Assembly: GCA_945904955.1 (NCBI GenBank)
Contig: CAMDPO010000009.1
Span: 1-64,000 of the forward strand
DNA from: Rhizobium sp. Q54
Lineage (GTDB): Bacteria; Pseudomonadota; Alphaproteobacteria; UBA2966; CAIVPW01
DNA: 64,000 nt
Direction: 5' to 3'
Shown: piece by piece, positions 2,804 through 39,816 of the stretch
Layout of the letters: each line of letters starts with the position of its first letter
Position numbering within the stretch: the stretch's first letter is position 1
Program-made: the position numbers and the translations under genes
The notes under the pieces: generated by a model
Databases searched by the model: none
What the model was told of the DNA's origin: nothing
Seen by the model: only the letters and a program-made list of their open reading frames with translations

Positions 2804-4278
2804 TGCTTCCACCAGGTCTGCGGGCGAGCCGTGAACTGGGCGGCCTGCTCGAGCACGCCGGCGGTGCGCAGGACGGTTTCCTCGTCGTAGGCGCGGCCGA
2901 TCAGCTGCAGGCCGAGGGGCAGTCCGTCGGCGGAGAGGCCGGCGGGCACCGAGATGCCGGGCAGGCCGGCGAGGCTGGCGGGCACGGTGAACACGTCGTT
3001 CAAGTACATGGCGATGGGGTCGGCGGTCTTCTCGCCGCGTGCGAAGGCGGACGACGGTGCGGTCGGCGCCAGCAGAACGTCGACCTCTTTGAACGCGTTG
3101 GCGAAGTCGGCGGCGATGAGGGCGCGGACGCGCTGCGCCTTCAGGTAGTAGGCGTCGTAGTAGCCGGCCGACAGCACGTAGGTGCCGATGAGGATGCGGC
3201 GGCGCACCTCGCGGCCGAAGCCGGCGCCGCGCGTGCCCTCGTACATGGCCGTCAGGTCTTCGCCTTTCTCGCGCAGGCCGAAGCGCACGCCGTCGTAGCG
3301 CGCGAGGTTGGACGAGCACTCGGCGGGTGCGACGATGTAGTAGGTCGGCAGGGCGTACTTGGTGAGGGGCAGCTTGACGGGCTTGAGGATGGCGCCTGCC
3401 GCCTTCAGCCACTCGGCGCCCTTGGTCCAGATCGACTCGATCTCCTTGGGCATGCCGTCGATGCGGTATTCCTCGGGGATGCCGACCTTGAGGCCCTTGA
3501 TGTTGCCGGTCAGGGCCTTTTCGAAATCCGGGACGGCCATGTCGACGGAGGTCGAGTCCTTCGGATCGAAGCCGCACATGGAGCGCAGCATGATGGCGGC
3601 GTCCTTGACCGTGCGCGTCATCGGGCCGGCCTGGTCGAGGGACGAGGCGAACGCGACGATGCCCCACCGCGAGCAGCGGCCGTAGGTCGGCTTGATGCCG
3701 ACGATACCGCAGAAGGCGGCCGGCTGGCGGATCGAGCCGCCGGTGTCGGTGCCGGTGGCGGCCAGCGCGAAGCGCGCCGAGACTGCCGCGGCGGAACCGC
3801 CGGACGAGCCGCCGGGGACTCTGGAGCGGTTGTCGCCGGGCTTGCGCCACGGGTTCTCGACCGGACCGAAGTAGCTCGTCTCGTTGGACGAGCCCATGGC
3901 GAACTCGTCGAGGTTGACCTTGCCGAGCATGACGGCGCCGGCGTCCCAGAGCTTTTGCGTCACGGTCGACTCGTAGGTCGGCACGAAGGGTTCCAAGATG
4001 TGCGACGCGGCAGTGGTGCGCACGCCCTTGGTGCAGAACAAGTCTTTGATGGCGAGCGGCAGGCCTTCGAGCGGGCGCGCGTCACCACGCGCGATGCGCT
4101 TGTCGGATTCGTCGGCCATCGCCTTGGCGATCACCGGCGTTTCGGTGATGAACGCGTTGAGCGGGCGCGCCGCGATCATGGCGTCAACGTGGGCGCGGGC
4201 GAGCTCGGCGGCCGAGAACTTCTTGGCGCGCAGGCCGTCGCGGGCGTCGGCGAGCGTGAGATCGGTGAGCGAGGTCAC
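2800..4278 (-). CDS. gatA: aspartyl/glutamyl-tRNA(Asn/Gln) amidotransferase subunit A
   Basis: 492 residues, amidase-signature family. GatA hydrolyses glutamine and supplies ammonia to GatB for transamidation of mischarged tRNA. The Ser-cisSer-Lys triad is visible: Lys78 in LAIKD, Ser158 in the glycine-serine block [12 protein letters not shown], and Ser182 in [11 protein letters not shown]. The 24-residue spacing between the two serines matches the family. It follows gatC by 13 bases and overlaps gatB by 4 bases. The presence of gatCAB implies that this organism makes Gln-tRNA (and perhaps Asn-tRNA) by the indirect route. Confidence 0.98.
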
Positions 4279-6693: not shown

Positions 6694-7624
6694 TTAGGCG
6701 GACTTAGGCACAGGCACGTTGGCCTTGCCCCGGAAGCGGCGTTTGCGCAGATCGGTGAAGCGCAGGATCGAGTCGACGAGGTCTTCCTGGGTGGAAATCT
6801 CGAGGGTGTCGACGCCGGCGCGGGTAAGGCCGTCGCGCACCAGGATCTCGCGCTGCTCCGCCGCCTGGGCGAAGCGCTTGCGGAAGCCACGGTCGGCGGT
6901 GTCGACGAAGACCTGCTCGCCGGTTTCGGAATCCTGCATGACGAACAGGCCGAGGGGCGGCAACTCGACCTCGAGCGGATCGAAGGGACGCACGGCGAGA
7001 ATCTCGTGGCGCTGGCTCAGCATGTTGAGTGGGCCGTCCCAGCCGGGCGAGCTAACGAAGTCGGACACCAGGAAGACGAACGAGCGGCTGTGCACGATGT
7101 TGAGTGCGGCGCGCAGCAGCTCCGACAGGTCGGTGGGCGGCGACGCCGACAGTTCGGGCCGGCGCACCATCTCGTTGACGATGTGCAGCACGTGGCGGCG
7201 GCCGGTGCCCGCCGGGATGACGGTGTCGACGTTGCCGCCGTAGAGCAGCGCGCCGACGCGGTTGCCGTGGCGCGTCAGCACGCGCGCCAGCGTCGCGGTG
7301 AAGTCGGTGAGGATCTGGCGCTTGGTCATGGCCTCGGAGCCGAAGTCCATCGACGGGCTCATATCGAGGAGGAACCAGGCCGTGATCTCGCGGTCCTCGT
7401 TGTATTGGCGCACGTACGGCACCTGCAGGCGCGCGGTGACGTTCCAGTCGATGTGACGGACGTCGTCGTGCGTCTGGTACTCGCGCAGGTCGGCTAGATC
7501 GAGGCCGAAGCCGCGGAACAGCGTGCGGTAGTCACCCTGCAGATAGCCGTCGAGACGGCGAACAACCGTCCACTCGAGCCGCCGCAGGACGGCTTCCGGA
7601 TCTTTCCGATCAGTATTTGGGCGG

Positions 7625-31096: not shown

Positions 31097-33436
31097 CTAT
31101 TCCTCGTCCTCTTCTTCGTCTTCCTCGGCTTTCCCTTCGTCGAGGTGAACGACGTTGAGGAAGGGCTGCAGCGGCAGGAGTCCCTTGGCCGTGCGGCCGC
31201 CGCGGCCAACGGCCGGGACCTCAACGCGATCTTCGCAAGGCAGGAAGCCAGTGGCGCATTCGATCTTGGCCTGATCGCCCGGATGGCCCATGGGCACGAA
31301 CAACTGCGGGCGGTCGAAGGGCGCCGCCTCGTTGCGTACGCGCTCGTCGGTCATGGCGAGCATCAGCTTTATGAGCGCGACCTCGTCGTCCTCTTCGAGA
31401 TCGACGAGCGCCATCTTGACGTCGAGCTCCTTGATGTTGACGTCGGCGAAGTCGCCGAAGCGGTCGTAGAACTCGACCACTTGGCCGAGCGTCGCCATGC
31501 CACCGTTGTGGAAGTACGGTCCGGTCAGCTCGACGTTGCGCAAACCGGGGATCTTGAACGAGCCGGGAATGCCGAGCTGCGGCGCCACCATCTGGCCCTC
31601 TACGAGCACTTCGAAGGCGTTGGGCGGCAGGTCGAGCCTCGCCAACGGCTGGCGCGAGAACGGAATGCCGAACTCGGCGCCGCCGTGGCCGATGTCCTCG
31701 GCCGTCGGCCGCACGCCGATGTTGGAGAAGCCACGATCGAGCAACAGCGCGCCCTGGCCGGTACCCACCACCAGACGGCCATCGACCATAGCCGCTGGCT
31801 GGTCCGAGAGGTGGATGCCGCGGCCCATGAATGTGTTGCTCGCCTGCGTGAGCTCCGGCCCAACGTGGCACGCGACGCAGTTGCCCTGGCGCACGCCCTG
31901 GAAGATGGGGTTGGCTTTCTGCTCCGCGGTGCCGCGATTGATGAAGGTCAGCAGACCGACGAGCTGGTCGGCATCGAGCGCTTTGTCGTCGCCGGCGAGG
32001 AACGCGTCGAACGGTGTCTGATCGGAGATTAGCGTCGTCTCGTACATCTGAATGGCGAGACCGAAGATGAGCGCGAAGTTCGCCTCCATCAGGCTGTATG
32101 CCTTGGCGCCGGCCGGGACCTGTGCGGCCGTGCGCACGCTGCGTACGTCGCCTTCGAAGGTGACGAGCTGGGTGGACTCCCACACCAGCGGCTGGAACAC
32201 GGCGCGCACCAAATCGGTGTAGCTTGCCGTGGTCAGGCCAAGTTGACCGTTGATGGCGCGCGACAGCGGTCCGAGCACGCTGTCCTGGGGGTGCACTTCT
32301 TGGGTCGCGAGCGGGCGGAGGGCCAAGAGCTTCTTGCCGAGGTCCGGGAACGAGCGCGCCGTGTAGGACATCTCGTCCTCCGACAACGGCGGGCCAACCG
32401 CCTGGGAGGCCAAGCTGGCCCGCTCCATGACGAGCTGGCGTTCGACCACCATGCCGTTCTCGACAACGAGAATCCTGGCGTTGCGGTCGAGGCGGCCGAA
32501 CGGATTGACGCCGTTGAAGAAGTTCTGGGCGCGCCCATCCCAGAACTGCTCTGAATTGAACACTGCGTTGATCATGGTCGGCGTATGGCGCGGCTCGACG
32601 CGGCGCGTGTTGACGCCGTGCACGGCGAAGACGTCGTCGGGCAGAGGAGTGCCAAGGTCGCGGGCGGCACCCGCCTCGATACCGTCATAGCGCCACTTCA
32701 TGACACCTTGCGACGAGATCACGTCGTTGGTATCGCGCAAGAGGACTCGCTTGTTGTAGTTGGGCTCTTCCGCGTCGGCGAACATGCGCAGCGGAAAGTC
32801 CTCGGCCTTCAGCACGTAGTTCGGTCCGAACGCCGGCGCCGTCAGGCCCTTGGCCTTGCCGGCGTCGGTGATCGTCACGCCGAACTTCGTGTCGTTGGCC
32901 TTGGTGCCGGGATTGACCTGGTTCTTCAGGCGGTTGTCTGCGCCGGCGTGGAAGTGGCATGAGCCGCATGCCTTGCCGTCGCTGCCGACCTGCATGTCCC
33001 AGAACAGCGCCTTGCCGAGCTGCACGGCGACCTGCTCCATGCCGGGACGAATGTAGTCGTTGAGATCCAGGGGCTTGAGGATCGCCACGGTGGAGAGTGG
33101 CGCCAAGCCCGCCTCGACCGCGGCGGCACGCACCGCGGCGGGATCGGGTCCGCGCAGCGACAGGCCGATGGCCGCGAACGCCTCTTCGAGCGCATCGACG
33201 CAATCCTCAACTTCTTCTTCCGCTTTCGCTTCCAGCGCTTCGTCGAGCTCGTCCTCGGCGCGCGCACGCGCATTCAGGTCCTCGACCCCGGCGGCGATGG
33301 CTGCCTGGAGTCGCTCGATCTGTGCGGAGCAGAACGCGAGGTCGTCGTCACCGCCGCCACCGGTCGCGGCGCTCTGCATCGCCCACGCAAACACGGCGCT
33401 CGTGATCCCCAGCGCCATCCAAACTACGCGTCGCAT
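31097..33436 (-). CDS. large di-haem MauG/cytochrome c peroxidase-like protein with N-terminal two-Cys module
   Basis: 779 residues from the ATG at 33436 (GGGGAGGG ribosome-binding site just upstream). A signal peptide (to about 25) is followed by an acidic helical module (about 30-93) with Cys36 and Cys79, then the di-haem domain with CGSCH (157-161) and CVACH (520-524), and an acidic tail ending in Glu/Asp repeats. Haem attachment and the block HFHAGADNRLKNQVNPG fit a large MauG/bacterial cytochrome c peroxidase subgroup; ordinary family members are about 300-400 residues. MauG-type enzymes oxidise residues of partner proteins, while peroxidases reduce peroxide; I cannot decide which. The N-terminal module recurs in the lipoprotein at 35163-35483. 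Confidence 0.9.
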   Translation of the reverse strand: MRRVVWMALGITSAVFAWAMQSAATGGGGDDDLAFCSAQIERLQAAIAAGVEDLNARARAEDELDEALEAKAEEEVEDCVDALEEAFAAIGLSLRGPDPAAVRAAAVEAGLAPLSTVAILKPLDLNDYIRPGMEQVAVQLGKALFWDMQVGSDGKACGSCHFHAGADNRLKNQVNPGTKANDTKFGVTITDAGKAKGLTAPAFGPNYVLKAEDFPLRMFADAEEPNYNKRVLLRDTNDVISSQGVMKWRYDGIEAGAARDLGTPLPDDVFAVHGVNTRRVEPRHTPTMINAVFNSEQFWDGRAQNFFNGVNPFGRLDRNARILVVENGMVVERQLVMERASLASQAVGPPLSEDEMSYTARSFPDLGKKLLALRPLATQEVHPQDSVLGPLSRAINGQLGLTTASYTDLVRAVFQPLVWESTQLVTFEGDVRSVRTAAQVPAGAKAYSLMEANFALIFGLAIQMYETTLISDQTPFDAFLAGDDKALDADQLVGLLTFINRGTAEQKANPIFQGVRQGNCVACHVGPELTQASNTFMGRGIHLSDQPAAMVDGRLVVGTGQGALLLDRGFSNIGVRPTAEDIGHGGAEFGIPFSRQPLARLDLPPNAFEVLVEGQMVAPQLGIPGSFKIPGLRNVELTGPYFHNGGMATLGQVVEFYDRFGDFADVNIKELDVKMALVDLEEDDEVALIKLMLAMTDERVRNEAAPFDRPQLFVPMGHPGDQAKIECATGFLPCEDRVEVPAVGRGGRTAKGLLPLQPFLNVVHLDEGKAEEDEEEDEE

Positions 33437-33571
33437 TGGTCCCTCCCCAAGGCACCCCATCAGACAACTCTACAACGAACGCGCGACCCTGGTGGCTGCG
33501 ACAACTACCAACCACCATGCGGAGCCCTCAAGACCAAGCTCGAACCACGGGAAATGGCGCAGTTTTTCGGG

Positions 33572-33585
33572 GGAAACATGTTTCC
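33572..33585. promoter_or_regulatory. 14-bp perfect palindrome, candidate regulator site
   Basis: GGAAACATGTTTCC is a perfect palindrome in the divergent region between the MauG-like gene and the response regulator, centred 25 bases upstream of the regulator's sigma-54 promoter. It could be an operator. I did not find the same palindrome before the other sigma-54 promoters. Confidence 0.4.
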
Positions 33586-33603
33586 GCGGGGCCACGGTCG
33601 CGC

Positions 33604-33618
33604 TGGCATGTGGCTTGC
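33604..33618 (+). promoter_or_regulatory. sigma-54 promoter of the response-regulator gene
   Basis: TGGCAT (33604-33609), five bases, TTGC (33615-33618): one mismatch to TGGCAC-N5-TTGC, with the invariant GG and GC in place. Transcription should start near 33630, 23 bases before the GTG at 33653, which suggests that the regulator gene depends on sigma-54 and perhaps on its own product. Confidence 0.75.
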
Positions 33619-33652
33619 CTATGGCTGCTATCGGAAAAGGTAATGGTCCAGG

Positions 33653-35149
33653 GTGCGCGTGGATTCTTCGGGGGCTAGTGAGGCAGAGGGCGGCGAAAGC
33701 GCGCCCGCGCCCGGCTCCGGGGGCTGGCGCATCCTCATTGTCGACGACGAGGCGGTGTTCGCGCGCGCCATCGCCACGACACTGACGCGGGCTGGCCACA
33801 GCCCCCTCGTCGCCACCACCGTCGCCGAAGCCAGGTCGATCCTGAAGGAGCACGCAGCGCGGCCACCAGAGGTGGTGCTGCTCGACATGCGCCTTCCTGA
33901 CGGCGACGGGCTGGAGCTGCTCAGCAAGCTGATCGAGCAGGAACCTGCACCGACCGTACTGGTCATGACCGCATACGGGGACGTCGGGCAGGCGGTGAAG
34001 GCAATGCAAGCGGGCGCCGCCGACTACCTCAAGAAGCCCATCGATCTCGAGGAGCTCCTCATCACCCTCGACAAGGCGATGCAGTCGGAACGGCTGCGCG
34101 TGCGCCTGCGCTATTCGCGCACCCGCGAATCGCGCAGCGAGTCACACGGTCAGCTGATCGGCGACTCGCGCGCCATCCGCGATGTGCGCACGCAGATCGA
34201 CAACGTCGCCGCGGTCGGCGGCGACCGTCCCCCCAACGTCCTCATCCTGGGCGAGACCGGGACCGGCAAGGACGTCGTCGCACGCCTGGTGCATCGCCGC
34301 GGACCGCGCCGCGACCGCCCCTTCGTCCACGTGGACTGCGCGTCGCTGCCGGGCGAGATCATGGAAGCGGAGCTATTCGGACACGCGCGCGGCGCGTTCA
34401 CAAGCGCACACGCCGCGCGCGCCGGCCTGATCGAAGCCGCCGAGGACGGCACCGTGTTCCTTGACGAGATCGGCGAGCTGCCGCTCGACATGCAGTCGAA
34501 GCTCCTCAATGTGCTGGAACGGCGCCAGGTGCGCCGCGTCGGCAGCACGCGGGAAGTGCCGGTGCCGGCCCGCTTCATAGCCGCAACCAACCGCGACCTG
34601 CCGGCCATGGTGGCGCGCGGCGCGTTCCGCGACGACCTGTTCTACCGGCTCAACGTCCTCGGCATCGCCCTGCCGCCCCTGCGTCAGCACCGCGAAGATG
34701 TCCCACTCCTCGCCCACCACTTCCTGGAAGCGACGTCGCGCTCCTACGGGCGGCCAACGCCGCGTGTGGAAGACGCGGCCCTTGCCGCCCTGGCCGAGTA
34801 CGCATGGCCGGGCAACGTGCGCGAGCTCAAGAACGTAATCGAGCGCGCAGCGCTTCTGGCGGGCCCTGAGGGTATTGCCGCCGCGTCCTTCGCGTTCTCT
34901 GCGCCGGCGCGGCCGAGTGCGCCCTCTCCACGGATGCCGGTGGCAGCATCCGGTGCGGGGCCTGTGCGCAACCTGCTCGACGCCGAGCGCGATTTGATCG
35001 AGGCGGCACTGATCGAGACCAACGGCAATGCATCGCTGGCGGCGCGTCAACTCGGGATCACGCGCATGGCTCTGCGGTACCGCGCCGAGAAATACGGCCT
35101 GCGGCCGGACGACTACCGGCGGCGGTACGATGAGCCCACCAACCACTGA
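33653..35149 (+). CDS. NtrC-family sigma-54-dependent response regulator
   Basis: 498 residues from a GTG. Receiver domain (26-140) with phospho-acceptor Asp78 in LLDMRLPDGDG; AAA+ domain with Walker A GETGTGKD (200-207) and Walker B VFLDEIGE; C-terminal Fis-type helix-turn-helix (NASLAARQLGITRMALRYR). The sigma-54-contacting loop reads GAFTSA (247-252) instead of GAFTGA. No sensor kinase gene is adjacent. Sigma-54 promoters lie before this gene and, twice, before the TonB-dependent receptor, so it is the obvious candidate activator (inference). The lipoprotein gene follows after 13 bases, probably in the same transcript. Confidence 0.95.
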   Translation: MRVDSSGASEAEGGESAPAPGSGGWRILIVDDEAVFARAIATTLTRAGHSPLVATTVAEARSILKEHAARPPEVVLLDMRLPDGDGLELLSKLIEQEPAPTVLVMTAYGDVGQAVKAMQAGAADYLKKPIDLEELLITLDKAMQSERLRVRLRYSRTRESRSESHGQLIGDSRAIRDVRTQIDNVAAVGGDRPPNVLILGETGTGKDVVARLVHRRGPRRDRPFVHVDCASLPGEIMEAELFGHARGAFTSAHAARAGLIEAAEDGTVFLDEIGELPLDMQSKLLNVLERRQVRRVGSTREVPVPARFIAATNRDLPAMVARGAFRDDLFYRLNVLGIALPPLRQHREDVPLLAHHFLEATSRSYGRPTPRVEDAALAALAEYAWPGNVRELKNVIERAALLAGPEGIAAASFAFSAPARPSAPSPRMPVAASGAGPVRNLLDAERDLIEAALIETNGNASLAARQLGITRMALRYRAEKYGLRPDDYRRRYDEPTNH

Positions 35150-35162
35150 CGGGAGAGCTGCC

Positions 35163-35483
35163 ATGGCAACGACGAGGGTGCTTTCGCTGGCGAAGAACCT
35201 GGCCTTCACCGGCGTTCTGGCATTGAGCGTGACGGGGTGCAGCGGCGACGACGACTTCGCCAACGTCGCCAACCCGGAGGCGGCTTGTACGTCGAACATC
35301 GCGCGGCTGCAGGCAGCGCTGCAACCTGGCGGCGGCGCAGCCACGGCGGCGGCGAACGCGCGCACGGACGCCGAGGAAGAGCTCGACGAGGCGATCGAGG
35401 CCCGCGGCAAGCGCGACTGGCCGGATTGCCTGGACGCGCTCGCAGAAGCATTCGAAGCGGTCGGCATGCCGCGCGGCTTCTAA
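35163..35483 (+). CDS. small lipoprotein sharing a two-cysteine module with the MauG-like protein
   Basis: 106 residues. Signal sequence with lipobox VTGC (Cys26), then GDDD and a helical module: Cys42-TSNIARLQAAL, AEEELDEAIEARGKRDW, PDC(89)LDALAEAFEAVG. The N-terminus of the MauG-like protein has the same order: Cys36-SAQIERLQAAI, AEDELDEALEAK, EDC(79)VDALEEAFAAIG. The two cysteines probably form a disulfide between two helices. The only aromatic residue in the module other than Phe is Trp86, next to Cys89. Family unknown to me. ATG with GGGAGAG upstream; 13 bases after the regulator gene. Confidence 0.85.
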   Translation: MATTRVLSLAKNLAFTGVLALSVTGCSGDDDFANVANPEAACTSNIARLQAALQPGGGAATAAANARTDAEEELDEAIEARGKRDWPDCLDALAEAFEAVGMPRGF

Positions 35484-35561
35484 TAGCCAACCGGTCGCAG
35501 TGGTAGCCGCTCCGCACGAGATGCCGTCGCGCGGAGTCGCGGTTTCGCGCGGCGTGCGCGT

Positions 35562-35576
35562 TGGCACGTCGCTTGC
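35562..35576 (+). promoter_or_regulatory. consensus sigma-54 promoter (distal)
   Basis: TGGCAC (35562-35567), GTCGC, TTGC (35573-35576): an exact match to the sigma-54 consensus. Expected start near 35588. A strong terminator begins at 35664, so this promoter may serve a short RNA rather than the receptor 350 bases away. Confidence 0.85.
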
Positions 35577-35587
35577 GAAGGACGCCT

Positions 35588-35703
35588 GGGTTCCTCCCCC
35601 CGACCACCGGCGCACCTCGTTCCACCTGCGTTGCCCGAGGATCGGATGAAACCCTGAGGACTGGGGCCGCCGGATTGCGCACGATCCGGCGGCCCTTCTC
35701 TTT
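35588..35703 (+). ncRNA. candidate sigma-54-dependent small RNA (about 115 nt)
   Basis: The interval is bounded by the start expected from the consensus sigma-54 promoter and the end of the terminator. The only ATG frame in between is Met-Lys-Pro-stop. The 5' half contains a C-rich single-stranded-looking stretch (GTTCCTCCCCCCG) that can pair with G-rich ribosome-binding sites such as the GGGGAGG before the MauG-like gene. No conservation or expression evidence is available, so this is a prediction from signal order only. Confidence 0.4.
35664..35703 (+). terminator. strong intrinsic terminator between the tandem sigma-54 promoters
   Basis: GGGCCGCCGGAT (35664-35675) pairs perfectly over 12 bp with ATCCGGCGGCCC (35684-35695), loop of 8 bases, followed by TTCTCTTT. 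It would end both the regulator-lipoprotein transcript and any RNA from the distal sigma-54 promoter, leaving the proximal promoter to drive the receptor. Confidence 0.85.
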
Positions 35704-35804
35704 CCAACCATGAACGGCTGCAGCAGCCACCGTTTGGCTCCTGCGCCGGCACCACGGCGGCAACCAACCGGCGGATTCCTGCGGAATTCGCGGCCGATCG
35801 CCGA

Positions 35805-35819
35805 TGGCACGATCGTTGC
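35805..35819 (+). promoter_or_regulatory. consensus sigma-54 promoter of the TonB-dependent receptor
   Basis: TGGCAC (35805-35810), GATCG, TTGC (35816-35819): exact consensus. Expected start near 35831, giving an 89-base leader that ends in the strong ribosome-binding site AAGGAGGGGG (35907-35916) before the ATG at 35920. The whole gap 35484-35919 holds two sigma-54 promoters, one terminator and no gene. Confidence 0.88.
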
Positions 35820-35919
35820 CATGTGCAACCTCTGCCGGGGGAGGCGGGTGCGCGACAAACGCACGTGTTCTCGCGCGGCCGCGTAGTGGTCGCGGCGCTG
35901 CCGCGCAAGGAGGGGGAAT

Positions 35920-38277
35920 ATGCGTAGAGTCCATCTGCATACGAAGGTTGTGTTGGCCGCAGGCACCATGCTGGCGACCTTGGCGATGCACACAACTGCT
36001 TTTGCGCAACAAGCGCCGATCGCGGTACCGGAGGTGGAAGTCATCGGCGCTACGCCGATCCTGGGTGGCGCTGTCGAGCGCAACAAGATCCCGACCAACG
36101 TCCAGGTTGTGAACCCCAACGACGCGGCCGTGCCGCCGACCAATGGTATCGCCGAAACGCTGATCACCCAGGTGCCGAACGTCACCGTCAATGCGGCGCA
36201 GAACAATCCCTATCAGCCCGACATCCAGTTCCGCGGCTATACGGCGTCGCCGCTACTCGGCAACAGCCAGGGCCTCGCGGTCTACCAGAACGGCGTGCGC
36301 ATCAACGAGGTGTTCGGCGACACGGTGAACTGGGACTTGATCCCGGACACCGCCATCGGACAGCTCAACGTGGTGCCGGGCGGCTGGAACGCGGTGTACG
36401 GCCTCAACGCTCTGGGCGGCGCGCTGTCCCTCGACATGAAGGATGGCTTTGAGTTCAAAGGCACTCAGGCGGGCGCCGAGGTGGGCCAGTGGGGCCGCCG
36501 CAAGCTCTCGATCGAGCACGGCAACGAGAGCCGCAACAGCGCGTTCTATTTTGCTGCCGACGCCATCAACGAGGACGGCTGGCGCGACTTGTCGCCGTCG
36601 GAGTTGCGCCGCTTCTATGGCGACTTCAGCCATCGCGGTGACAAGCTCGACCTGTCGTTGAACTTCACCGGGGCACAGAACACCCTGGTCGGCAATGGCG
36701 CGGCGCCGATCGAGCTGTTGGCGGCGCGCCGGCAGTCGATCTTCACGGCTCCCGACGAGACGAAGAATACGCTCGGCATGCTGAGCCTCAACGGCAACTA
36801 CTTCTTGAGCGACAGGCTGTCGCTGCAGTTCGTCGCCAATCTGCGCCGCATGCTGCGCGACACGCTCAACGGCGACGCCTCGGAGTTCGAGGAGTGCCAA
36901 GGCACCAACGTCGGCGAAACCGATGCCGCGACACTGGCGCCGGATGATCCCGACGATTTCATGTGCGAGGACGCCGGCGACGCCGACGAGGAGATCGCCC
37001 TCGACGAGAACGGCGAGCGCATCCTTGCCTCGGAAGCGCGCGAGAGTGGCGTGCTCAATTACTCCGGCACGCGCACGACGTCGTATGGCGTCGGCCTGCA
37101 GACGACGTGGGAAGGCATGCTCGGCGGCCGCGAGAATCGCATCATCTTCGGCGGCAGCTGGGACGCCGGCCGCACCAAGTTCCACTCGGAGACGGAGCTC
37201 GGCGCCCTCGACGAGCGGCGCTTCGCCATCGGCGACGGCGTATTGGTCGGAGAGACGCTGGTGCGCGCCGAGACGGACACGACCTACTACGGCGTGTTCC
37301 TGGTCGACACCATCGAGCTCACCAACCGCCTCGATCTGAACCTCGCTGCTCGCTACAACGAGGCGAAGGTCAACATCGCCGACCGCGTCGGCGAGGACCT
37401 CAACGGCAACCACACCTTCCGCCGCCTCAACCCCGCTGCCGGCATCACCTACGCCTTCCGGCCGGGCGCAGCGCTGTCGCTGAGCTACTCCGAGGCCAAC
37501 CGCGCGCCGACCGCCGCGGAACTGACCTGCGCGGACGAGGATGATCCGTGCCGCTTCCCGAACGCCTTCGTCGCCGATCCGCCGCTATCGCAGGTCGTCA
37601 GCAAGACCTTCGAAATCGGGGCGCGCGGCACGACCGGCCGCTGGGACTGGAATGGCGCGCTGTTCCGCACCACCAGCTACGACGACATCATGTTCATCTC
37701 GAGCGGGCCCGGCACGCAGTCGGGCTTCTTCCAGAATGTCGGCGAGACGCGCCGGCAGGGCGTCGAGATGGGCGTGCGCGCGAAGTTCGGGCGCCTGACC
37801 ACTTTCGCCAACTACTCGCTCCTGGATGCGACGTTCCAGTCGGCCATGACGATCAACAGCCCGAACAATCCGTTCGCCGACGACAACGAGATCAACGTCG
37901 AGGCGGGCGACAAGATCCCGCTGCTGCCGCGCCACAACTTCAAGCTGGGCGCCGACTTCGACGTGACCCGCGCGTGGGTCGTCGGCGGCACGCTCAACGG
38001 AGTGTCGAGCCAGTACTTCCGTGGCGACGAGGCCAACCTCTCCCCACCGGTGCCGGCGTTCCAGACCATCAACCTGCACACGCGCTACCGCGTGCGGGAC
38101 TCGATCGACCTGTTCGCCAAGGTAGATAACGTGTTCGACGCCGAGTACGAGACGTTCGGCATTTTCGGCGAGGTCGACGAGGTCGATCTGGCCGAGGCAC
38201 CGGGCGCCGAAGATCCCCGCATGTTGGGACCGGGAGCACCGCGCACCTTCTCGGTCGGGCTCAAGGTTCGTTTCTAA
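35920..38277 (+). CDS. TonB-dependent outer-membrane receptor
   Basis: 785 residues. Signal peptide cleaved near AFAQ/Q; TonB-box-like EVEVIG (38-43); plug domain (about 55-175) with the typical IRG-like PDIQFRGY and GLNALGGALSL; then the barrel, ending in an aromatic C-terminus (SVGLKVRF). An acidic extracellular loop (about 319-366) holds Cys326 and Cys349, and another Cys pair lies in LTCADEDDPC, so at least two loops may be disulfide-braced. The ligand is unknown: I see no strong signature for siderophores, cobalamin or sugars. It is preceded by two sigma-54 promoters and followed by a terminator and a tonB gene. Confidence 0.95.
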   Translation: MRRVHLHTKVVLAAGTMLATLAMHTTAFAQQAPIAVPEVEVIGATPILGGAVERNKIPTNVQVVNPNDAAVPPTNGIAETLITQVPNVTVNAAQNNPYQPDIQFRGYTASPLLGNSQGLAVYQNGVRINEVFGDTVNWDLIPDTAIGQLNVVPGGWNAVYGLNALGGALSLDMKDGFEFKGTQAGAEVGQWGRRKLSIEHGNESRNSAFYFAADAINEDGWRDLSPSELRRFYGDFSHRGDKLDLSLNFTGAQNTLVGNGAAPIELLAARRQSIFTAPDETKNTLGMLSLNGNYFLSDRLSLQFVANLRRMLRDTLNGDASEFEECQGTNVGETDAATLAPDDPDDFMCEDAGDADEEIALDENGERILASEARESGVLNYSGTRTTSYGVGLQTTWEGMLGGRENRIIFGGSWDAGRTKFHSETELGALDERRFAIGDGVLVGETLVRAETDTTYYGVFLVDTIELTNRLDLNLAARYNEAKVNIADRVGEDLNGNHTFRRLNPAAGITYAFRPGAALSLSYSEANRAPTAAELTCADEDDPCRFPNAFVADPPLSQVVSKTFEIGARGTTGRWDWNGALFRTTSYDDIMFISSGPGTQSGFFQNVGETRRQGVEMGVRAKFGRLTTFANYSLLDATFQSAMTINSPNNPFADDNEINVEAGDKIPLLPRHNFKLGADFDVTRAWVVGGTLNGVSSQYFRGDEANLSPPVPAFQTINLHTRYRVRDSIDLFAKVDNVFDAEYETFGIFGEVDEVDLAEAPGAEDPRMLGPGAPRTFSVGLKVRF

Positions 38278-38306
38278 GGGATCCGCTTAGCAGCATTCGG
38301 CGCACA

Positions 38307-38347
38307 CACACCGCGGGGCGTGCGACACCCCGCGGTGTGACGCTTTT
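38307..38347 (+). terminator. terminator-like hairpin after the TonB-dependent receptor
   Basis: CACACCGCGGGG (38307-38318) pairs perfectly with CCCCGCGGTGTG (38328-38339), loop of 9 bases, then ACGCTTTTCGG. The T-run is short, so termination may be partial and allow some read-through to tonB. Confidence 0.65.
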
Positions 38348-38446
38348 CGGGATGGCGAACTTCGGCCCAGTGGGAGGGGACCGTGCACGCCAAGACCAGG
38401 CTTCGCTCCGAGCGAGCCAGCGTTGACGACGGCCGGACTCCGTCTT

Positions 38447-38462
38447 GGTGCCGATAGGCACC
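38447..38462 (+). promoter_or_regulatory. hairpin abutting the tonB start codon
   Basis: GGTGCC (38447-38452) and GGCACC (38457-38462) flank GATA and end at the base before the ATG at 38463. There is no obvious separate ribosome-binding site, so the hairpin may limit initiation there or mark the use of an upstream TTG/GTG (38445/38448). Confidence 0.4.
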
Positions 38463-39467
38463 ATGCGGGGTCCGTTCGTCTTTTCGCTTGGCGCGCACGC
38501 CATCGTGGTGGCCGTGATGTACTTCGGCCTGCCCGAATGGCTGCGGCCGGTGGAGAGCCCGCCAGACGCGATTGCGGTCGATCTGGTCGAGGAAATCGCC
38601 CTCGCCGTACCCGAAGTCTCCGCAGCGCCCGCCGTCGCGGCCACCCCGCCGCCCTTCGCAGCACCGGCGCCTGAGCCCGTTCGGGAACCCGTGGCGGGGC
38701 CACTGCCACTCCCGCCCCCACCGGCCCACCCCCCAGAACCCGCACCCGAGCCTCTGCCACCACCGCCGGAGTTCATGCCAGAACCTCCTCCGCCCGAGGC
38801 AGAGCCGCTGCCGGAGGCCGTCGTCATTCCGGAGCCGCCGCCACCGCCCGAGCCAGCGCCAGAAGAACCGCGCATCGCCGAGGTCCCGCCGCCGGAACAT
38901 GAACCGCCGCTCTTGCCGGAGCCCGAACCTGTGTGGGAGCCGGAGCCGGTCGTCGTCGAGGAGCCACCGCCGCCGGAGCCCGTCGCCGTCGCAGTTCCAC
39001 CGCCACCGGAGCTACCCCCACCGGAACGCGAGCCGCTGCGGGAGCCGGAACCGACACCCGAGCCGGCACTCGTTGCGGCGCCGCCGTCGCCTCCAGCTGC
39101 CGCCGTGGAGGCGCCGGCTGCGTCTGCTCCCGCACCAGTCGCGCAGCCGGCCATCGCCGCGCAGGCAGGGACAGTGACGGCCGACGCAATCGCGCAGTAC
39201 GCGCTCGCCATCAATCGCAAGGTCGACGCGGTGAAGCAATATCCGGCACAGGCGCTGCGGCGGCGCGAGCAGGGCACGATCGAGGTGCGCGTCTCGCTGA
39301 ATGCGCGCGGCGAAATTGTGGCGATCGAAGCGGCGCAGGCGGAGCCGCGGCTACTCGTGCAGGCTGCGCTGGAGGCGGTGCGCAAGGCAGCGCCTTACCC
39401 GGCCCTCGACGCGATCGGCCGCACCGATACGCAGTTCGTCATCCCGGTGCGTTTCGAGGTGCGCTAG
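38463..39467 (+). CDS. tonB: TonB-family energy-transducing protein
   Basis: 334 residues. A short cytoplasmic start and one transmembrane helix (about 5-23) are followed by a very long Pro/Glu-rich periplasmic spacer (about 50-215, many PEPPPPE units) and a C-terminal TonB domain (YPAQALRRREQGTIEVRVSL, then GRTDTQFVIPVRFEV). It would couple inner-membrane proton-motive force to an outer-membrane receptor. Its position straight after the receptor gene suggests that it is dedicated to that receptor. No exbB/exbD genes are in the window. The proline-rich segment is compositionally unusual but uses the same codons as its neighbours. Confidence 0.93.
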   Translation: MRGPFVFSLGAHAIVVAVMYFGLPEWLRPVESPPDAIAVDLVEEIALAVPEVSAAPAVAATPPPFAAPAPEPVREPVAGPLPLPPPPAHPPEPAPEPLPPPPEFMPEPPPPEAEPLPEAVVIPEPPPPPEPAPEEPRIAEVPPPEHEPPLLPEPEPVWEPEPVVVEEPPPPEPVAVAVPPPPELPPPEREPLREPEPTPEPALVAAPPSPPAAAVEAPAASAPAPVAQPAIAAQAGTVTADAIAQYALAINRKVDAVKQYPAQALRRREQGTIEVRVSLNARGEIVAIEAAQAEPRLLVQAALEAVRKAAPYPALDAIGRTDTQFVIPVRFEVR

Positions 39468-39483
39468 CTGCCGCGTCGCGCCG

Positions 39484-39816
39484 TCAAGCGTAGTGGACGG
39501 CGACCCATACGGTTGGGACCTGCGGGTCAGTCCATTCGACGCGATGGCGGCAATGGGCAGGGATGTCGACGTAGTCGCCGCCGCGCAGCGTGATCGACTC
39601 CGCCTTGCCTTCAAATTGGAGGCGCGCGGCGCCGTGCACCACCAGCACCCACTCGTGGCGATCCTGGTCGTACCAGCGGCCGGGCTCGGTGACGTGGCCG
39701 AGGGAGACGATACGCTCGATGCGGGCGCCGGAAGCGTCGATCAACGTCGTGAACTGCTCGCCGGAAAAATTCGCAGGCACGCCGGTGCCCAGAGACCCTC
39801 GCCGCAGTGCGCTCAT
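39484..39816 (-). CDS. small cupin-domain protein
   Basis: 110 residues forming a single cupin barrel. The first cupin motif is around RHEWVLVVHGAARLQFEG and the second around GDYVDIPAHCRHRVEWTD, with His and Glu residues in metal-ligand positions. The start (FSGEQFTTLIDASGARIERIV) resembles small cupins annotated as cell-division or sugar-related proteins, but the substrate is unknown. No signal peptide. It is convergent with tonB (16-base gap) and divergent from the phosphatase gene. Confidence 0.85.
   Translation of the reverse strand: MSALRRGSLGTGVPANFSGEQFTTLIDASGARIERIVSLGHVTEPGRWYDQDRHEWVLVVHGAARLQFEGKAESITLRGGDYVDIPAHCRHRVEWTDPQVPTVWVAVHYA

Follow-up and report, generated by a model that had tools for sequence, protein, structure and literature searches.

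When a consensus sigma-54 promoter runs straight into a perfect terminator, does it mark the gene of a small regulatory RNA, or does it belong in some way to the genes around it? The question is raised by positions 35562-35703 of a 64,000-nucleotide stretch of DNA from Rhizobium sp. Q54, the whole of which is referred to here as the window. Few sigma-54-dependent small RNAs are known, and the well studied ones, CrcZ and Qrr1, adjoin NtrC-type activator genes in gammaproteobacteria. The reading that we favor, with a probability of roughly 0.7, is that of an autonomous small RNA gene, whose NtrC-activated sigma-54 transcript would repress in trans, most plausibly acting on a MauG-like gene.

Promoter, terminator and coding content

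The predicted transcript and its parts are as follows.

35562..35576, + strand: sigma-54 promoter of the small RNA, TGGCACGTCGCTTGC (exact consensus; counterparts in sister genomes G001, G002 and G003)
35588..35703, + strand: predicted small RNA, 116 nt (promoter geometry, terminator, G003 homologue and the match of covariance model R1 in G001)
35588..35592, + strand: 5' arm of the closing stem, GGGUU (pairs with AACCC at 35650-35654; GGGUU/AAUCC in G003)
35589..35599, + strand: C-rich anti-Shine-Dalgarno stretch, GGTTCCTCCCC (TCCTCCC common to all four copies)
35600..35603, + strand: 5' arm of an inner helix, CCGA (pairs with UCGG at 35642-35645; identical pairs in G003)
35650..35654, + strand: 3' arm of the closing stem, AACCC (kept in G003)
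35664..35695, + strand: intrinsic terminator stem-loop with a perfect 12-bp stem (two compensatory pairs against G003)

A preliminary description of this DNA had claimed a consensus sigma-54 promoter at 35562, a terminator with a perfect 12-bp stem, about 115 nt from expected start to terminator end with no usable reading frame, and a second sigma-54 promoter past the terminator serving the receptor gene; all four claims were borne out. The exact sequence TGGCACG-N4-TTGC occurs twice in the window, at 35562-35576 (+) and at 35805-35819 (+), the latter directly before the receptor gene, compared with 0.047 per 64 kb when the window is dinucleotide-shuffled. The whole genome holds seven such sites as against one with the reversed control, so that the match at 35562 stands well above chance by either measure. 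The remaining exact sites lie upstream of flagellins, a cold-shock protein, a YVTN propeller and a small secreted protein, and rpoN itself was found in the genome (PF04552, E = 4e-67). Taking the C of TTGC as position -12 places the predicted +1 at 35588, and the predicted transcript is 116 nt long.

The terminator stem, with arms GGGCCGCCGGAT and ATCCGGCGGCCC at 35664-35695, is followed by the moderately T-rich tail TTCTCTTT; the T-tract is weak in the copies of G002 and G003. The 64-kb window contains four strong terminator-like sites, this one included, and perfect 12-bp arms are found four times, compared with 0.15 per shuffle. Folding of the small RNA gives z = -3.97 against shuffles, a value owed largely to the terminator; the 5' 72 nt folded by themselves give z = -0.41. 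The C-rich stretch, present as one motif only, sits in an internal loop or small hairpin. A single start with a ribosome site was found inside the transcript, ATGAAACCCTGA, encoding three codons (M-K-P-stop) and nothing beyond.

Two further observations concern the sigma-54 promoters of these genomes. At several promoters of the regulon the initial transcribed sequence resembles TTGCC-ATGGC-GC-AT-GGAA (window 33604-33650, L070, L173, L178 and L180), a likeness that extends beyond the promoter itself. A cold-shock-like protein gene with an upstream sigma-54 promoter is kept in six genomes of the family (L068, L271, L258, L261, L285 and L296); to our knowledge, genes of this kind are seldom under sigma-54.

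Genomic setting and paralogous clusters

The unit lies 3' of a regulator gene and a small lipoprotein-like gene and 5' of a receptor gene, with a MauG-like gene positioned divergently to the left.

31097..33436, - strand: MauG-like di-haem protein, predicted target (Pfam CCP_MauG)
33604..33618, + strand: sigma-54-like promoter upstream of the regulator, one mismatch (promoter search)
33653..35149, + strand: NtrC-family sigma-54 response regulator, likely activator (Pfam; 65% identical to the C7-cluster regulator)
35163..35483, + strand: small lipoprotein-like protein, relative of the N-terminus of the MauG-like protein (sequence comparison)
35805..35819, + strand: second sigma-54 promoter, for the TonB-dependent receptor (exact consensus)
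35920..38277, + strand: TonB-dependent receptor (Pfam; by energy the second-best sampled pairing partner of the small RNA)

The likely start of the MauG-like gene is 33436 rather than the first ATG of its open reading frame at 33460. The block of regulator, lipoprotein, small RNA, receptor and TonB genes spans 33460-39500 of the window. In the sister genomes G004 and G002 this block is missing: the interval from the MauG-like gene to ClpA is filled by different genes, none of them related to the regulator or receptor. Two such regulators occur only in the window genome, every other genome of the family having one, and in a tree the window regulator does not group with its own paralogue on contig C7. 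Receptor homologues in other families are without a sigma-54 site.

The lipoprotein-like protein (35163-35483) and the N-terminal ~100 residues of the MauG-like protein (33158-33397) are relatives, with about 48% identity. In 385 sampled genomes the family was confined to this genus, and it matches nothing in Pfam, NCBIfam or PHROG.

A paralogous cluster is present on contig C7 of the window genome and in G004:C4. Its order is kinase, regulator, small lipoprotein, enhancer palindrome, sigma-54 promoter, small secreted protein, terminator, sigma-54 promoter and second small protein, and further genes are, by NCBIfam, parts of a PQQ-dependent alcohol dehydrogenase system. The small secreted proteins look cupredoxin-like by eye; the one that was checked against families gave no match. 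The hairpin 3' of the first small secreted protein includes the enhancer palindrome of the regulator, with TGGTGGTTGTGAGTAGCCACCA inside GGCCGGC...GCCGGCC, so that a single element may be both a terminator and the enhancer of the next promoter. Such hairpins were seen in several species:

L173 (G000:C7) ~7290-7340; L174 8885-8930; L178 ~3870-3920; L179 ~3575-3610 (reverse strand): palindrome-bearing hairpins

Counterparts in sister genomes and alternative readings

Counterparts of the small RNA were found in three of the four sister genomes. Those of G001 (contig identical to record CAMDCA010000094.1) and G002 stand beside the orthologous NtrC-type regulator, whilst that of G003 lies elsewhere, alone; in G004 no copy was found by the promoter-plus-motif pattern, by reading sigma-54 sites or with model R1. 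The regulator locus of G001 and G002 comprises an exact sigma-54 promoter, a C-rich stretch (CCCTCCTCCC; TTCCTCCCC), an ORF-less transcript of ~110-120 nt and a terminator. The gene downstream differs from that of the window and has its own enhancer and promoter after the terminator. The G003 unit, which surfaced on reading the leftover sigma-54 sites of an eight-genome survey, is located at C259:2555 between two unrelated genes, the next gene being on the opposite strand.

Common to all four copies are the exact TGGCACG-N4-TTGC promoter, UCCUCCC just 3' of the predicted +1 and, ahead of the terminator, a closing stem. In this stem, the 5' end pairs with bases before the terminator as GAGUGCC/GGCACUU and GAGUGCA/UGCACUU in G001 and G002, respectively, and as GGGUU/AACCC in the window. 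Past the promoter and motif, the G001 and G002 copies have no detectable sequence homology to the window copy. The window and G003 copies align with a score of z = 9.6 (0/500 shuffles as good) and have GGGTTCCTCCC and CCGA/TCGG in common. Conservation of structure in related genomes, which the preliminary description had proposed as a check, was looked for and found: besides the analogous closing stems of G001 and G002, all 20 of 20 base pairs are kept in G003, with two double-sided changes in the terminator and one G-C to G-U change in the closing stem, although pair counts from two sequences have little power and 117 of 500 shuffles reach them.

Covariance model R1 was built from the window and G003 copies only, because MAFFT alignments that include G001 and G002 misplace the terminators. 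Its best match in the G001 genome is the G001 unit (E = 2e-4, partly via the promoter); further matches in G077, L176 and G003:C20, without promoter or motif, were set aside as chance. A search of 143 genomes of the class for the promoter followed within 10-40 nt by CCTCCYC returned only the three regulator-linked copies (window, G001 and G002) and none in controls, the motif having been picked after these three were seen. The eight-genome survey of the family covered 81 sigma-54 sites. A short transcript built in this way and free of ORFs follows only at the four copies; at nearly all of the rest, the site is inside coding sequence or is followed by an open reading frame with a ribosome site. 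When the entire 421-bp intergenic region was searched at the nucleotide level, only the window itself and short chance matches came back, and the plasmid collection searched gave no match. In G007, an equivalent promoter (L182, G007:C12, reverse strand ~3021-3350) drives a 61-aa lipoprotein-like open reading frame, and the terminator loop there carries TCCTCCCC.

Independent support for the small-RNA reading of 35562-35703 comes from the three sister-species counterparts, which repeat its order of promoter, motif and terminator and include a stand-alone copy homologous in both sequence and structure. Promoter, terminator, non-coding nature and conserved design are each supported by sequence and comparison, and the counterparts suggest a real regulatory RNA able to block ribosome-binding sites.

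Several other readings must be weighed. The terminator may merely end the regulator-lipoprotein operon, the promoter-like site being incidental or yielding a by-product in the form of a 3'-UTR-type RNA. Indeed, it is the first terminator 3' of the lipoprotein stop, 181 nt away, and a co-transcript like that of cbrB-crcZ could exist (PMC6292655). However, the homologous promoter-RNA-terminator unit of G003 does not lie behind the regulator, none of the four copies departs from the promoter consensus, and no T-tailed terminator separates lipoprotein and next promoter in the paralogous C7 cluster; we consider this reading improbable. A similarly slight chance attaches to a CrcZ-like decoy that sequesters an RNA-binding protein instead of base pairing. 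The genomic logic is the same as for cbrB-crcZ and the sequence diverges fast outside the motif and stem, but there is one C-rich stretch with no repeated protein-binding motif, and the conserved element is an anti-Shine-Dalgarno sequence.

It could also be imagined that a promoter-gene-terminator unit has lost its small gene by deletion, leaving a functionless transcript. The paralogous clusters have just such a layout of promoter, small gene, terminator and promoter, and the 61-aa lipoprotein-like frame driven by the equivalent promoter of G007 ends in a terminator. Yet a closing stem is kept in all four copies, as is the C-rich stretch, whose spacing from the promoter hardly varies; the window and G003, at separate loci, keep all 20 pairs, in part through compensatory changes. 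Descent from a unit of the C7 kind was dropped on the sister-genome evidence, and we rate a vestige as quite improbable. Slightly less credible still is an attenuated leader, in which 35562 would be a second receptor promoter and the terminator a conditional attenuator that is read through under some signal. The receptor does lie downstream on the same strand, and the three-codon MKP-stop frame is just before the terminator. Against this, the receptor has its own exact promoter past the terminator, the downstream gene in G001 and G002 is a different one with its own enhancer and promoter (hence the position in cis is not conserved with one gene), the G003 unit is alone with its neighbor on the opposite strand, and no riboswitch family was found by Rfam in the window or at the locus. 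The stand-alone G003 copy and the differing downstream genes thus disfavor the attenuator and operon-end readings alike. A very short functional peptide, to which the MKP mini-ORF with its upstream GAGG in the window copy might point, is highly improbable, as the G002 transcript has no ATG, the G001 frame begins without a ribosome site inside the transcript and runs through the terminator, and nothing is common between species.

Proposed activation and pairing, and comparison with known small RNAs

Two further elements are needed to consider how the autonomous small RNA gene might be activated and where its transcript might act.

33438..33448, - strand: GGGGAGGGACC, the MauG-like gene's ribosome-binding region, able to pair with the small RNA (11 contiguous pairs)
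33490..33517, + strand: enhancer-like dyad TGGTGGCTGCGACAACTACCA and a further half site (best-scoring dyad in the 64-kb window)

We infer the identity of the activator, the pairing mechanism, the targets and the direction of the effect. The unit adjoins the regulator in three species, making the regulator the likely activator, as with cbrB-crcZ (PMC6292655) and luxO-qrr1 (PMC8043402). A scan of the 64-kb window with a matrix derived from the enhancers of the paralogous clusters placed the best dyad at 33490-33510, upstream of the regulator's own promoter. The surroundings of 35562 gave no strong match; the small RNA promoter would be activated either from a distant enhancer or through a different site. 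An enhancer-like word, CCGGTCGCA, picked by eye near the small RNA promoters of the window, G001 and G003 and missing in G002, offers a lead.

In these bacteria, strong Shine-Dalgarno sequences are complementary to the UCCUCCC of the small RNA, whose action as an anti-Shine-Dalgarno RNA appears most likely. The complementarity to GGGGAGG before the MauG-like gene that had been described is real and longer than claimed, amounting to 11 contiguous pairs (one of them G-U) between 35589-35599 and 33438-33448. Among sampled leaders, of which there were 15-82 per genome, the MauG-like leader ranks first in the window genome (1/82; -28.4 kcal/mol, 11 contiguous pairs), in G002 (1/31; -30.4, 12 pairs) and in G001 (1/15; -23.0). 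In two species out of three, other leaders have stronger ribosome sites, MauG ranking 14/82 and 8/31 when scored by anti-16S pairing. When the flanks were shuffled and the C-rich core was left intact, the MauG pairing did not significantly exceed that of the shuffles (143, 484 and 111 of 1000), leaving the target weakly supported; the motif explains the ranking, and the MauG-like gene is thus a candidate rather than a demonstrated target. Next in the window genome comes the PQQ-cluster gene ApbE when leaders are ordered by run of pairs, and the receptor when they are ordered by energy.

In the mechanism that we propose, sigma-54 RNA polymerase would be activated at 35562 by an NtrC-family protein, with the product of the neighboring gene (33653-35149) as the likeliest candidate. 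Transcription would start at ~35588 and stop at the terminator, giving an RNA of roughly 116 nt in which the closing stem would hold the 5' end and leave the C-rich UCCUCCC partly unpaired. This sequence would then pair in trans with strong Shine-Dalgarno sequences and lower translation, the MauG-like di-haem gene being the most plausible to be repressed, and the same activator would meanwhile induce the TonB receptor from the receptor's own promoter. By analogy with NfeR1 and other CCUCCUCCC RNAs (PMC10746234, PMC3927594), repression via occlusion of the ribosome site would be the natural expectation.

Comparison with known systems reveals partial likenesses. The crcZ gene is sigma-54-dependent and lies directly 3' of its NtrC-type response regulator gene (PMC6292655, PMC6296734), and its RNA titrates Crc/Hfq (PMC6296734). 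Like CrcZ and CrcY, which are under CbrB and sigma-54 in Pseudomonas and Azotobacter, the window unit is a predicted sigma-54 small RNA behind an NtrC-type regulator gene; unlike CrcZ, it carries one C-rich anti-Shine-Dalgarno stretch. The qrr1 gene of Vibrionaceae, under LuxO and sigma-54, likewise adjoins its NtrC-type activator gene, luxO, with further copies elsewhere (PMC8043402), but is divergent from luxO and serves quorum sensing. In Alphaproteobacteria, the alpha-r14/NfeR1, cuckoo and CcsR RNAs block ribosome binding of several mRNAs by an exposed C-rich anti-Shine-Dalgarno motif, CCUCCUCCC, carried in the loop of each of two to four hairpins; CcsR RNAs modulate C1 metabolism and are transcribed by RpoHI/RpoHII, whilst NfeR1 is activated by LsrB (PMC3927594, PMC10746234, PMC10253847). 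An anti-Shine-Dalgarno stretch able to pair with ribosome-binding sites is a feature also of the window RNA, which differs in having one motif near its 5' end, a sigma-54 promoter and no multiple CCUCCUCCC hairpins; exact CCUCCUCCC occurs only in the G001 copy.

At the gathering threshold, Rfam returned only tRNA in the window, with no small RNA family and no match to CrcZ or Qrr. Sub-threshold matches at the locus overlap the terminator stem and were discounted as chance. BcKCsr2 (RF02883) was rejected for the G001 copy, where the end-to-end alignment scores 24.7 bits, far below the gathering threshold of 40, with many broken pairs; the window copy gives no match to it. The small RNA is very probably genuine; it would represent a new RNA family that works like CrcZ/Qrr1 and the CCUCCUCCC small RNAs, and is not a member of CrcZ, Qrr or CcsR/alpha-r14.

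It is tempting, if tentative, to speculate further that we are dealing with a genus-specific family of sigma-54 anti-Shine-Dalgarno RNAs, mobile in the genome yet under the same NtrC-type regulator, which possibly swaps periplasmic redox proteins by repressing the MauG-like protein, and perhaps ApbE of the PQQ cluster, while the regulator induces the receptor and PQQ/alcohol-oxidation genes. The window unit offers a defined predicted transcript, an activator candidate and a candidate target that are testable in a heterologous host. If true, our reading would extend the arrangement of a sigma-54 small RNA adjacent to its activator to an uncultured freshwater alphaproteobacterial genus, and would join it to the anti-Shine-Dalgarno RNAs known from Alphaproteobacteria.
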